NCBI GenBank assembly: GCA_019242155.1
Contig: JAFAWA010000314.1
Location: forward strand, 1 to 57,396
Reading direction: 5' to 3'
Length of the DNA stretch: 57,396 nt
Source: Terriglobia bacterium
GTDB lineage: Bacteria; Acidobacteriota; Terriglobia; Bryobacterales; Bryobacteraceae
The notes under the pieces were generated by a model. The model did no database searches. It was not told the DNA's origin and saw nothing but the letters and a program-made list of their open reading frames with translations. This document shows, piece by piece, positions 4,288 to 20,413 of this stretch. Both the position numbers and the translations under genes were made by a program. Positions within the stretch are counted from its first letter, which is position 1. Every line of letters starts with the position of its first letter.

Positions 4288-6933
4288 TCATTCATGTCTC
4301 AAAGCGACCGCCGGATCGACGTTCATAGCCCGGCGTGCCGGCACCAGGCAGGCGAACAGCGCGACGGAAATTAGGATCACCGGCGCGCCTGTCATCGTAA
4401 CGGGATCGTAGGGCGACACGCTCACCAACTGCGATTGCAAAATGCGATTCACTGCAAGCGATCCAGCCAAGCCGAGAATCAGACCAATCGCCGCCGGCAA
4501 CATGCCATCGCGAAGGACCATCTTGCGGATGTCTTCGGCTGCCGCCCCAATGGCCATCCGAATGCCGATTTCTTTCGTGCGTTGGCTCACCGATTGCGCG
4601 ATCACGGCATAAAGCCCGACAACAGCCAACAGCAGGGCAATCAGAGCGAAAACGGGCGACACCGCCGCTTGTTTCCCCAACTCGCTGTGTTCGGCATCCA
4701 TGGAATCGCGATCAAATGCGAAGTGGGCTTTTAAGGTAGTGAGATCCCCCAGCAACACATCGGGGTCGAGTTTCTGTACCTTGGCTCGAACGGGGCGCGC
4801 CAGTTGGTCCTGCGACACAGGTGCTCGCACGAGCAAGTAAGCGCGCCTACCCGGGGGCTCTTGGTGGAGCGGTACGTAAACGAGCGGCTTGAAACGCTGC
4901 CGGAGCGCGTCTCCCTGCATGATATTTGAAACGACGCCCACCACCACACGCCATTCTCCGGGCTTCCCCTGCTCCATCGCACGAATGCGTTTACCGAGCG
5001 GCTGTTCTCCAGGCCAGAAGGTGGCCGCAAAGCTTTCGTTCACCACGGCAACCGGCAGTGCCGCCGGACGATCGCGGTCGTCGAAACCACGGCCGATGGC
5101 CGGGGCGGCTCCTACGGCCAGGAAATAGTCGGGTCCGACGCTCAGAAATCCGAGGTCCTGCTCGCCCGGACGTCCCTCGATTTCAAAGCTCCGCAAATTC
5201 ACGAAGCTCACAGGCAGGGTGCTGGCCACCGCTTCCCGCTCAATCCCTGGAATGGTCCGCAATTGCTCCTCGAGCCGGTTAAAATACGCACGCCGTGCCT
5301 CCGCGGCGGAATACTTGTCAGACGGCAATCTTAGGGATCCCACCAGGACGTGTTCAGGATCGCGTACTCCGGTTTTTGCGCTGACGATCGCGACGAAGCT
5401 CCGCACCAGGACGCCCGCTCCCGATAGCAGTACAATCGCAAAAGCCATCTGGCCCACTACCAACACCCGCGCGAGCCGAGTTCCGCGCGGACCCTCGGTT
5501 ACCCCGCGACAGTCACCCCTGAGAGCCCCGCTCAAGCTCATTCTTACAATCCTGCTGATGGGCGGAAGAGAAACCAAAATGGCCACGACGGCGGAAGTGG
5601 CCGCGAGGTAAGCAAGCGTGCCGGAATTGACCGAGTAGTCCACGACCTGATAGGGGGAAAAGGTGGCCACTGCCCAAGTGCGCACAGCCCACTTGGCCAT
5701 CCACCAACCAAGTGCCCCGCCCGCGCCCGCCAGTAGAATGCTCTCGGAAAGGATCTGGAGGACCATCCGCCCGCGGCCCGCACCGAGTGCGATGCGCGTG
5801 GCGAATTCACGTGAGCGGCTAATCGTTCGCGCGAGGCTTAGATTGGCCAGGTTGGCGCAGGCGATCAGCAATACCAGACACGCCCCCGCCCACAGCGAAC
5901 CGAAGATTCTGGGTGCATTCTCGCCCGCGATTGCAGCCGAATAAGTAAACAGATTGGCGAGCAGGTTGCGATTTGTGACCGGGTAGTCGGCTTCGAGACG
6001 GCGGTTGATAGTCGCGAGTTCCGTGCGAGCCTCTGGGAGATCTGCGTCGTCGCGCAACCGGCCAACCACTTCGAAACTTCCGGGCGTCAGACCCCTTTTC
6101 AGCAGCGCGGGAGTATGCGCGATGGGCACCCACATATCCCCCTGGGTGGGAAAATCGAGGCCATCAGGCATCACCCCGATGATGCTGGCAGGCGCTCCGT
6201 TGATCTGGACAGCGAGGCCGGCGATATCCGCGCGTTTACGAAACCGGCTTTCCCAAAAGCGATAGTTGAGGATCGCCACCGGTGCTGCTCCCGGAGCTTC
6301 ATCGGACGGCACAAAATCCCTCCCTAGTATCGGCCGCACGCCCAGCAACCGGAACAGGTTTGTGCTCACATTGAACGCGAAGGTATCGGTGGGACGTTCC
6401 TGTCTCTCACGGAGAACAACGAGGCCGTCCGCGATAAACGCCATGCGTTGAAAAGCATGCGCCTGCGAACGCCAATCCTCAAAATCCGGATAAGAGACGC
6501 AACATCGCCCTGATGGATCCCTCTCCTGGATGAACAAGAGGCGATCGCTTCCTTTGACGAGCGGAGCTCCCCGAAACAGGATCGCGTCCATCACCGTGAA
6601 CACGGTGACATTCAACGCAATTGCAAGAGTAAGGGTCGCGATGGCCGCCAGAGTAAACGCCCAGTCCCGCCGCAAGGTGCGGAGTCCGTAGCAGAGTTCC
6701 TGAAAAATCTGATCGAGCCAAACCGGGACCCATACGGCGCGAGTATCCTCTGCAATCAGCGTGACGTTCCCGAAATTACGCAAGGCCCTCAAGCGTGCCT
6801 CTTGCGGCGCCAAGCCGTCCATTTGACGCTGTTCCGCGTCCTCCTCGAGGTGGAACTGGAGTTCGGCTCGCAGTTCCGCCTCTTTGTCAGAACTGTGCAG
6901 CAACCAAACTAGTTTGCGGATGAAGGCGTTCAA
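4288..6933 (-). CDS. ADOP-family ABC transporter permease (MacB-like periplasmic core plus FtsX domains)
   Basis: WLLHSSDKEAELRAELQFHLEEDAEQRQMDGL N-terminus, MacB_PCD, two FtsX regions. TTG start (caa at 6931-6933) preferred over the track start at 7095 because it couples to the padR stop. Confidence 0.85.
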   Translation of the reverse strand: MNAFIRKLVWLLHSSDKEAELRAELQFHLEEDAEQRQMDGLAPQEARLRALRNFGNVTLIAEDTRAVWVPVWLDQIFQELCYGLRTLRRDWAFTLAAIATLTLAIALNVTVFTVMDAILFRGAPLVKGSDRLLFIQERDPSGRCCVSYPDFEDWRSQAHAFQRMAFIADGLVVLRERQERPTDTFAFNVSTNLFRLLGVRPILGRDFVPSDEAPGAAPVAILNYRFWESRFRKRADIAGLAVQINGAPASIIGVMPDGLDFPTQGDMWVPIAHTPALLKRGLTPGSFEVVGRLRDDADLPEARTELATINRRLEADYPVTNRNLLANLFTYSAAIAGENAPRIFGSLWAGACLVLLIACANLANLSLARTISRSREFATRIALGAGRGRMVLQILSESILLAGAGGALGWWMAKWAVRTWAVATFSPYQVVDYSVNSGTLAYLAATSAVVAILVSLPPISRIVRMSLSGALRGDCRGVTEGPRGTRLARVLVVGQMAFAIVLLSGAGVLVRSFVAIVSAKTGVRDPEHVLVGSLRLPSDKYSAAEARRAYFNRLEEQLRTIPGIEREAVASTLPVSFVNLRSFEIEGRPGEQDLGFLSVGPDYFLAVGAAPAIGRGFDDRDRPAALPVAVVNESFAATFWPGEQPLGKRIRAMEQGKPGEWRVVVGVVSNIMQGDALRQRFKPLVYVPLHQEPPGRRAYLLVRAPVSQDQLARPVRAKVQKLDPDVLLGDLTTLKAHFAFDRDSMDAEHSELGKQAAVSPVFALIALLLAVVGLYAVIAQSVSQRTKEIGIRMAIGAAAEDIRKMVLRDGMLPAAIGLILGLAGSLAVNRILQSQLVSVSPYDPVTMTGAPVILISVALFACLVPARRAMNVDPAVALRHE

Positions 6934-17870: not shown

Positions 17871-18599
17871 TCACCGAAGCCAATATGCAATCGCCTTGTG
17901 CGTCAGCACGGAAACGAACAGCGCCCATCCAAAGCTAAGAAAGGTCCCGATGATAATGTACTCCGCAACTTTGCGTTGACTCGCGTCCTTAATTTCCCCG
18001 AAGCGCAGAATCGATTTTGCCGCGATCAGGAAACCGATTCCGTTTGGCTGGTCCATCAGGACAAACAGGAATACCAGAATTCGCTCCAGCCAACCGATAT
18101 AGCGTCCGCCTTGTGCTAGGCCGGTGATCTCGTTATCGCGAATCTCGTGTGCGAACGGCCGCATGGCCTTTTCGATCAGAACTCCGCCTGCCGGCACACA
18201 GGCTATTAAACCTGAGACACAATTAAGGACCGCGAAGTACCAGTTCAGAAGATACGGCGGCATCCCACTGGCCCACCAGCTTTCCCGTGCTGCGTTTTGA
18301 AAGTACCAGGCAACCCCGAGCAAGAGAATCGCGTTAATGGATTGCTCCGTAATAAACAGCGCGGCTGAATCTTGGGATGTGAGCATCTCGATTACAGCCG
18401 TGGCGGAACTCATTATTAAAATTCCAAGCAGAATTCGCCAATGGAAAGTTCCCATTAAGCAGGAGGAGATCAGAGCTACAGCAGCGCCACGAACGGCCGC
18501 GACCCGAATGATGTGCGTGCGCTTGTTTATCCACTCAGAGCGAAAGACGAATTCACCGAGCAAATAGGCAGTTAAGATACACGAAAACGTAAAACGCAT
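17871..18599 (-). CDS. DUF3307-like polytopic membrane protein
   Basis: About 6 hydrophobic segments; MRFTFSCILTAYLLGEFVFRSEW start resembles the DUF3307 pattern. ATG at 18599 preferred over the track TTG at 18614. Located next to a SatD-like gene. Confidence 0.65.
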   Translation of the reverse strand: MRFTFSCILTAYLLGEFVFRSEWINKRTHIIRVAAVRGAAVALISSCLMGTFHWRILLGILIMSSATAVIEMLTSQDSAALFITEQSINAILLLGVAWYFQNAARESWWASGMPPYLLNWYFAVLNCVSGLIACVPAGGVLIEKAMRPFAHEIRDNEITGLAQGGRYIGWLERILVFLFVLMDQPNGIGFLIAAKSILRFGEIKDASQRKVAEYIIIGTFLSFGWALFVSVLTHKAIAYWLR

Positions 18600-18608
18600 T
18601 TTTTGTTT

Positions 18609-18658
18609 AGTCAACCTTTTAAGGTTGTCTCAGCTTAGACAACCTAAATTGGTTGTCT
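18609..18658. promoter_or_regulatory. Two tandem 22-bp palindromes between satD-like and DUF3307-like genes
   Basis: AGTCAACC-TTTTAA-GGTTGTCT (18609-18630) and AGACAACC-TAAATT-GGTTGTCT (18637-18658), separated by 6 bp. Confidence 0.65.
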
Positions 18659-18669
18659 GGGATGTAATT

Positions 18670-19362
18670 TCATGACAACTGTCTTTTTGCCTCTCGTGAT
18701 TGTAAGACGGTCTCCCACGGGGTTTGTTCGAATTGATTAATGGTCTCCCGGATCACATGCCAGTGAGCCCCTTTGAGACCTTTCGCTACGGCCTGTTTTG
18801 AGACGGCAGGCCGCAGTAATTGCGCCACCGTTTCGAATTCGGGCTCCCTGGGGTCGAGCGCAAGGCGAGCGATTTGAGCTTGGCGTCTTGTCCACTGGCT
18901 GATGAGCGAGTCGCACAGATGCCCGATGACGCGCAGCCAATCAGAAAAAGAATCGGCCGTTTTCGGAATTTCAACCGTCATTCGCCAGTATTGTGCCATC
19001 TGGTCCAAGGCGTGACCTGAAAGTACAAATGCCTGTCCGGTTAGGAACGCGACCTTCTTTGACGGAGTTTTCTCGCCTTCCCCTAACCCGATGGCGATTC
19101 GACTATCGGCGACGCCGCCGGCGAGCAGAGACGCCCGAAGGAAGATCGCGACCCGCAGGGCCATTGCCGGGTCCGTCAAAAGTAATTGCCAACCATCACC
19201 ACGAAAAAACTCCACTTTGCCTTTAACTAAACTTCGCTTCCAGCGTGTCACCACATTGACCGCGTCGGTCAGCGACAAACGAACCGACTTCATTTGAGTC
19301 GGTAAAAGACGACTGGAATGAATGATGTCGCCCGTTAACACGGCGCGGTATTTAATTTGCAC
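18670..19362 (-). CDS. SatD-family-like protein: divergent nucleotide-cyclase-like domain plus C-terminal HTH-like segment
   Basis: VQIKYRAVLTGDIIHSSRL, EFFRGDGWQLLL, RIAIGLGEG, and VAQLLRPAVSKQAVAKGLKGAHWHVIRETINQFE. GTG start at 19362 chosen because the longer ORF overlaps the upstream gene. Confidence 0.65.
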   Translation of the reverse strand: MQIKYRAVLTGDIIHSSRLLPTQMKSVRLSLTDAVNVVTRWKRSLVKGKVEFFRGDGWQLLLTDPAMALRVAIFLRASLLAGGVADSRIAIGLGEGEKTPSKKVAFLTGQAFVLSGHALDQMAQYWRMTVEIPKTADSFSDWLRVIGHLCDSLISQWTRRQAQIARLALDPREPEFETVAQLLRPAVSKQAVAKGLKGAHWHVIRETINQFEQTPWETVLQSREAKRQLS

Positions 19363-19453: not shown

Positions 19454-20413
19454 CTACTTCCAACATTGAATTTCCACGATTCCAGGGGATTCCGCAGCCT
19501 CTTTCGTGCCGCCTGTCTCAAAGCGCACCCCGTTTGCTTCAAGAAAACCGGTGACCATGGCCGATTTTAACCTGGCTCCTCCGACTTGCGTCTCGCCCTC
19601 ATCTAAACGAGCCACTGCGTCCGGCTTTTTCTGCGATCTGAGTAAGGCCAGGTTGTTCTGCCGATCCACAAAGGCCGGTTGCAGCTTGGAACCGTCCTTC
19701 ATCGCGAGTTGGCTACATCCCTGCACCGATTCATACGTCGCGAGAACATCACCTTCGGAGTTTATGAACAGGCCGGAACCGGTTGCGGTGGGCGCGCCAT
19801 GTTCGGCAGCGGGAACTACACGGACCACTTCTACATTGATCAGCTTGATCGGGAAACGCGGCCGGTCTTTGTCGTCCCGAATTACGTTGGTGATTTTGCC
19901 GACCACCTTCTGCCCATCTACAACCTGCCCGAAAATCGTGTGCAATCCATTCAGCCACGGTGTGGCCGCATCGGTGATGAAAAACTGGCAGTCTCCGGTA
20001 TTCGGGCCTTTGTTAGCCATTGCCAATCGTCCTGGTTGATCGAAGCGTAACGCGGAGATTTCGTCGGGCAGCGTGAACCCGCAGCTATAAGCGCCGGTGC
20101 CGGTGGGATCGCCCGTTTGCACCATAAAGCCGGGTATGACGCGGTGAAAGATCAAATTCTCATAGAGCTGCCGGGTCACCGGCATTCGCGTTTTAGGATC
20201 CAGCCATTGACGTGTACCGCGCGCCAGCGCTATGAAGTTCCGCACCGTGATTGGCGCTTGTTTCTCGAACAGTTCAGCCGTGATCGTTCCCATGGACGTG
20301 TGAATGGTCGCGTACAGGCCGGGATCCAGCTTTGGAGGCGCGCCCGTGGGAGCCGGCTGTTGCTGGCCAAATAGCGGGGCGGCACCCAAAGCTAAGAATA
20401 CAACCATGCGCAT
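19454..20413 (-). CDS. Cyclophilin-type peptidyl-prolyl isomerase with C-terminal trypsin-like remnant
   Basis: HTSMGTITAELFEKQAPITVRNFIALA, FHRVIPGFMVQTGDPTGTG, GQFFITD-like CQFFITDAATPWLNGLHTIFGQVVDG; tail GSGLFINSEGDVLATYESVQGCSQLAMKDGSKL...NNLALLRSQ. Confidence 0.88.
   Translation of the reverse strand: MRMVVFLALGAAPLFGQQQPAPTGAPPKLDPGLYATIHTSMGTITAELFEKQAPITVRNFIALARGTRQWLDPKTRMPVTRQLYENLIFHRVIPGFMVQTGDPTGTGAYSCGFTLPDEISALRFDQPGRLAMANKGPNTGDCQFFITDAATPWLNGLHTIFGQVVDGQKVVGKITNVIRDDKDRPRFPIKLINVEVVRVVPAAEHGAPTATGSGLFINSEGDVLATYESVQGCSQLAMKDGSKLQPAFVDRQNNLALLRSQKKPDAVARLDEGETQVGGARLKSAMVTGFLEANGVRFETGGTKEAAESPGIVEIQCWK

Follow-up and report, generated by a model that had tools for sequence, protein, structure and literature searches.

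Repeated palindromes that are bound side by side at a regulator's own genes are found in the ARG boxes of ArgR and in toxin-antitoxin operators, and mycobacterial proteins of the Rv0386 type combine a cyclase domain with a helix-turn-helix (HTH). Here, we analysed a stretch of 57,396 nucleotides from a Terriglobia bacterium (contig JAFAWA010000314.1; the window), in which two tandem palindromes lie between a gene for a SatD-like protein and a gene for a DUF3307-like protein. The cassette resembles the ArgR and toxin-antitoxin systems in that repeated palindromes are present at the genes of a regulator, binding at SatD cassettes being putative; it differs from these systems in that cassettes of this kind keep a 28/29-bp pitch across proteins with quite different half-sites.

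The Rv0386-type proteins are a near comparison for the architecture of the SatD-like protein. The class III nucleotide cyclases Rv1900c, Ma1120 and Cya2 have the fold and both metal-binding aspartates in common with it; by contrast, positions aligned by eye with the transition-state Asn and Arg are not conserved in SatD-like proteins, and in the latter the cyclase-like domain is followed directly by the HTH in a protein of ~230 amino acids. Members of the SatD family PF16264 are the same two-domain proteins with D11, D55 and a C-terminal HTH. Finally, as in Pycsar and CBASS, a cyclase-fold protein is paired with a helical and probably membrane-bound partner, and the pairs are patchily distributed and occur on plasmids; in contrast to Pycsar and CBASS, the cyclase-fold domain of SatD is joined to an HTH, and the protein has a putative operator of its own. 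In the literature searched, outside which most subscription papers lay, we found neither a DNA-binding function nor a cyclase fold or an operator described for SatD, and searches on the function of SatD or DUF3307 returned nothing useful.

The palindrome pair and the spread of the cassette

The palindrome nearer DUF3307 (positions 18609..18630, plus-strand reading) is AGTCAACC-TTTTAA-GGTTGTCT and contains one imperfect pair; the palindrome nearer satD (18637..18658, plus-strand reading) is AGACAACC-TAAATT-GGTTGTCT and is perfect. On the minus strand, the order from satD to DUF3307 is AGACAACC-AATTTA-GGTTGTCT, 6 bp and AGACAACC-TTAAAA-GGTTGACT. The pair is placed between the stop codon of the SatD-like gene (18670) and the ATG of the DUF3307-like gene (18599), with 9 bp between the pair and the ATG. 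Both palindromes are 22 bp with an 8-6-8 layout, their start-to-start distance is 28 bp, and only one of the 16 arm pairs is imperfect. The earlier note had described two tandem palindromes with this layout and spacing, a single arm mismatch and this distance to the ATG, all of which the sequence confirms.

Allowing up to three mismatches to the motif, the two sites were the sole matches in the window (0.13 expected). Similarly, they were the sole matches with fewer than three mismatches in the 5.77-Mb genome, in which 13 matches at three mismatches were at the level of a reversed-pattern control. Thus, the genome-wide search that the earlier note had proposed returned no unrelated matches with fewer than three mismatches. 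Orthologs retain the tandem arrangement with its 28-bp spacing near the stop codon of satD. A single palindrome pair is present in L018, L022 and L042, although one copy in L042 has decayed; in the first two of these, the sites fall within the 3' end of the satD reading frame. L023 has two tandem pairs, i.e. four palindromes between satD and DUF3307 (5672-5865), all with CAACC half-sites. The gap of a cassette from another phylum, L031 on a plasmid of the alphaproteobacterium Sphingomonas insulae, contains a CAACC-type pair, TGTCAACC-N6-GGTTGACT and AATCAACC-N6-GGTTGACG, also 28 bp apart. The motif is accordingly present at orthologous loci in the family as well as on an alphaproteobacterial plasmid, as the earlier note had anticipated for an operator.

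A SatD-like protein was detected in five of the 237 genomes of the window's family, and among the genomes of 101 relatives the SatD-like and DUF3307-like proteins co-occurred in the same three; the distribution of the pair is patchy. Searches of plasmids, acidobacterial genomes and viral contigs yielded a wider family of 55 distinct SatD-like genes drawn from Acidobacteriota, Proteobacteria, Bacteroidota and viral contigs. A DUF3307 gene is located directly downstream on the same strand in 53/55 of these and, therefore, SatD is the only regulator seen to accompany the sites. In viral contigs, a scan with the broader A2 query identified four relatives, while scans with A1 or the Segatella protein identified none and the exact tandem pattern had no match; a tblastn search of phages with the window proteins also gave no match. 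DUF3307-like segments are present in large Pseudomonas phages, Aeromonas phage Aeh1 and Sulfitobacter phages. With regard to L022 and L039, the cassette in a record titled Nevskia soli isolate BOG_genome_mining.15 has a translation identical to that of a cassette in the window's acidobacterial family, so this label may be wrong.

The cassette is often plasmid-borne, including plasmids of 3.8-4.4 kb and larger ones, and sometimes lies beside defence genes. Patchy occurrence and carriage on plasmids could point to a mobile-element or recombination feature such as a REP-like repeat, terminal repeats or plasmid iterons; however, the sites have no further copies in the genome, and they are located ahead of satD or in the gap and were never noted at both ends of a cassette. 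We consider an origin of this kind highly improbable.

Spacing of the sites and the SatD helix-turn-helix

To compare spacings, every cassette was scanned, both upstream of satD and in the gap before DUF3307, for tandem palindromes with a free spacing of 16-45 bp and a free arm gap, and each region was tested against 100 dinucleotide shuffles with a threshold of p ≤ 0.02. Among 57 significant regions, the spacing was 28 bp in 41, 29 bp in 15 and 32 bp in one (L073), in which 32 bp ties with 28 bp. A spacing of 28 or 29 bp was thus found in 56/57 significant regions compared to ~6% in the shuffles, in a set of phylogenetically non-independent cassettes, many of which come from the acidobacterial family f7, the sample being weighted towards one acidobacterial family. 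At least one significant region was found in 46/55 cassettes, and the scan detected no significant pair in the remaining 9/55. Among control regions upstream of other genes at the same loci, 7/116 were significant, three of these at 28 bp. One of these three, in L085, is of the TTGTAC type; it immediately precedes a satD gene and has the appearance of a cassette operator.

The placement of the sites varies between cassettes. Some have them upstream of satD and some in the gap; L025, L028, L050, L051 and several cassettes of family f7 have them at both places. Three palindrome copies are present in L035. In the Salinivibrio plasmid cassette L038, a TTAGC-type tandem pair with 28-bp spacing is present at ~4075, just downstream of DUF3307 and before an S9 peptidase gene; it is another of the three significant control regions at 28 bp and is possibly a second operator.

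The half-sites differ between clades and include CAACC, GTAACC, GCACCC, TTAGCC, TTGTAC/TTGCAC and GGCCGG as well as TATAAGG, ACAAG, TTACAGC, ATCAAG and GTCAAT. In the window protein, the HTH (18769..18837, minus strand) has the recognition helix SKQAVAKGL, and its sequence goes with the half-site. Across 44 cassettes, distances between operators correlated with distances in the recognition-helix region of the HTH when the N-terminal domain was controlled for (partial r 0.50, permutation p 2e-4); after collapsing to 20 representatives, the partial correlation was 0.275 (p 0.003). Conversely, given the HTH, operator distances were uncorrelated with distances between the SatD N-terminal domains (partial r -0.004). 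Moreover, in an association spotted post hoc, all 9/9 representatives whose recognition helix has Lys at one particular position (SKQAVAK in the window protein) have CC in the half-site compared to ~1/11 of those without. Finally, L090/L091 have a very distant N-terminal domain and the helix SRQAVSK, and their half-sites are again CAACC. In total, the half-site sequence follows the SatD HTH and not the N-terminal domain.

These observations bear on whether a different, unlinked regulator, e.g. a host factor, controls the cassettes. Regulators of this kind exist, and the binding of SatD is putative; against such a regulator, the genome has no copies beyond these two and thus no regulon, the site accompanies the cassette across phyla, and it tracks the HTH of SatD specifically. 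Control by an unlinked regulator is therefore very unlikely. The earlier note's interpretation of the sites as an operator is, by contrast, supported because tandem palindromes with the same spacing, and with other sequences that track the local SatD HTH, mark most cassettes.

The SatD-like and DUF3307-like proteins

The SatD-like gene (18670..19362, minus strand) has a probable GTG start at 19362; a longer form from a TTG start at 19542 is possible. Scans of the window proteins against Pfam, NCBIfam and PADLOC gave no direct match, and for PF16264 no match was found at E ≤ 1. Homologs found with a window-based profile scored 55-103 bits on PF16264, i.e. above the Pfam cut-off, and a viral-contig relative scored 27.7 bits (cut-off 29). 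The relatives that score on PF16264 have D11, D55 and the C-terminal HTH in common with the window protein, which is itself too diverged for a direct match. Thus, the name SatD-like used in the earlier note holds through these intermediates, and not by a direct Pfam match.

In the structure model of the SatD-like protein (mean pLDDT 90.8), an N-terminal beta-alpha-beta-beta-alpha-beta domain is followed by a helical region with the HTH at the C-terminus. Foldseek matched the model to the class III cyclases Ma1120, Cya2 and Rv1900c (best E ~1e-4) and, at lower rank, to the cUMP synthase 7r65. Similarly, a sequence profile of the N-terminal domain (18970..19353, minus strand) matched Rv1900c with E 2e-5, with both Asp residues aligned, and also Ma1120. 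Asp11 (codon 19329-19327) and Asp55 (codon 19197-19195), both encoded on the minus strand, are invariant in 47/47 SatD-like proteins and align with the metal-binding aspartates of class III cyclases. By contrast, positions 112 and 116, which were matched by eye to the transition-state Asn and Arg, vary among the 47 proteins, suggesting that a sensing role is more likely for the N-terminal domain than ordinary cyclase activity.

The DUF3307-like gene (17871..18599, minus strand) is the presumed controlled gene. It is predicted to encode an all-helical protein (pLDDT 83.6), probably a membrane protein, and the model had no structural match in the PDB. The window protein did not match the PF11750 profile; its homologs found with a window-based profile match PF11750 well, and the most conserved part of DUF3307, a C-terminal block, is common to the window protein and these homologs. 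The designation DUF3307-like therefore stands on the homologs, a direct Pfam match of the window protein being absent.

Operator, transcript and proposed mechanism

Alternatively, the palindromes could act in the transcript: tandem hairpins located between the two genes would then control how the RNA is translated, how stable it is or where it terminates, and SatD might bind them as RNA. In support of hairpins, the window transcript has a stable predicted fold (z -4.8), the sites are located just before the DUF3307 start codon, and the window gap has no recognisable promoter at the palindromes. A stable fold would be expected of any tandem palindrome; moreover, the predicted minimum fold is one long hairpin in which the inner arms of the two copies pair, and not two hairpins, and an Rfam search of the site gave no match. 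Among all sites, 35 G-T and 35 A-C mismatched arm pairs were found. At gap sites these were mostly A-C (21 compared to six G-T), whereas RNA wobble favours G-T, arguing against a hairpin there; at upstream sites G-T was in excess (29 compared to 14 A-C). Because the sites are non-independent, these counts argue only moderately against RNA. Most N6 spacers in the window's family are rich in A when read on the coding strand, a polarity that an operator does not need; a hairpin reading based on these spacers was dropped because L042, L034 and L051 have the opposite polarity and because of the G-T/A-C counts. A terminator was also rejected, as the lone terminator-like match at the sites is on the strand opposite to the genes.

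The same sites with the same spacing are also present upstream of satD, many of them overlapping promoter-like hexamers. In 27/37 upstream regions, the operator and the best sigma70-like promoter overlap, compared to ~11 expected from length alone, although both features favour gene starts; in L028, palindrome 1 lies between the hexamers of TTGACA-N16-TATAAT. Gap regions showed no enrichment of sigma70-like promoters (overlap in 14/24 compared to ~13 expected). As no promoter was recognised at the window gap, an operator there would have to act by an elongation block or on a promoter of an unrecognised type. Together with site sequences that track an HTH of the DNA-binding type, these observations make transcript-level hairpins unlikely.

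Altogether, the palindromes most likely form an operator in double-stranded DNA to which the HTH of the adjacent SatD-like protein binds; this protein would be a ligand-sensing regulator of its own cassette and of DUF3307. As in the operators of autoregulatory HTH proteins, the palindromes are located at the regulator's own cassette, are unique in the genome and are matched to the HTH. One SatD dimer would bind each palindrome, and two, at times three or four, dimers would be arranged at the fixed 28/29-bp pitch, probably touching each other and possibly binding cooperatively; because this pitch corresponds to ~2.7 helical turns, neighbouring dimers would be on different faces of the DNA. In the many cassettes with sites at the satD promoter, SatD would repress satD-DUF3307. 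In the window's family, the sites are in the gap and not at the satD promoter, and bound SatD may block transcription into, or initiation of, DUF3307 alone. The cyclase-fold domain would most likely sense a nucleotide or metal ligand that alters DNA binding, and the change in binding would release or restrain the membrane protein DUF3307.

The L031/L092 cassette (NZ_CP048421 64000-84000) adjoins a cyclase/E2/2TM-effector operon of the CBASS/Pycsar type and a TIR-domain gene, and the L025 cassette adjoins an AbiEi-like gene; these neighbours suggest a role in defence. No defence genes were found in the stretch examined around the window's cassette. PADLOC matched neither the window pair nor the L031 pair, which are thus not assigned to Pycsar, defined by a PycC cyclase with a PycTM or PycTIR effector. 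It is possible, and we propose it tentatively, that SatD and DUF3307 form a mobile two-gene module for signalling or defence that has so far gone undescribed; in it, a cyclase-fold sensor fused to a DNA-binding domain would restrain a membrane effector via the repeating 28/29-bp operator until a nucleotide or phage-triggered signal releases it.

The operator reading provides a first testable function for two uncharacterised families: SatD would be a transcription regulator with a cyclase fold, and DUF3307 the membrane partner that it controls. Moreover, because the spacing is fixed while the site drifts with the recognition helix, the cassettes are a natural data set for the code of protein-DNA recognition, and the operator pattern can be used to recognise further cassettes. 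If the module is of the defence or toxin-antitoxin type, it would represent a new cyclase-fold architecture on small plasmids and in diverse bacteria.
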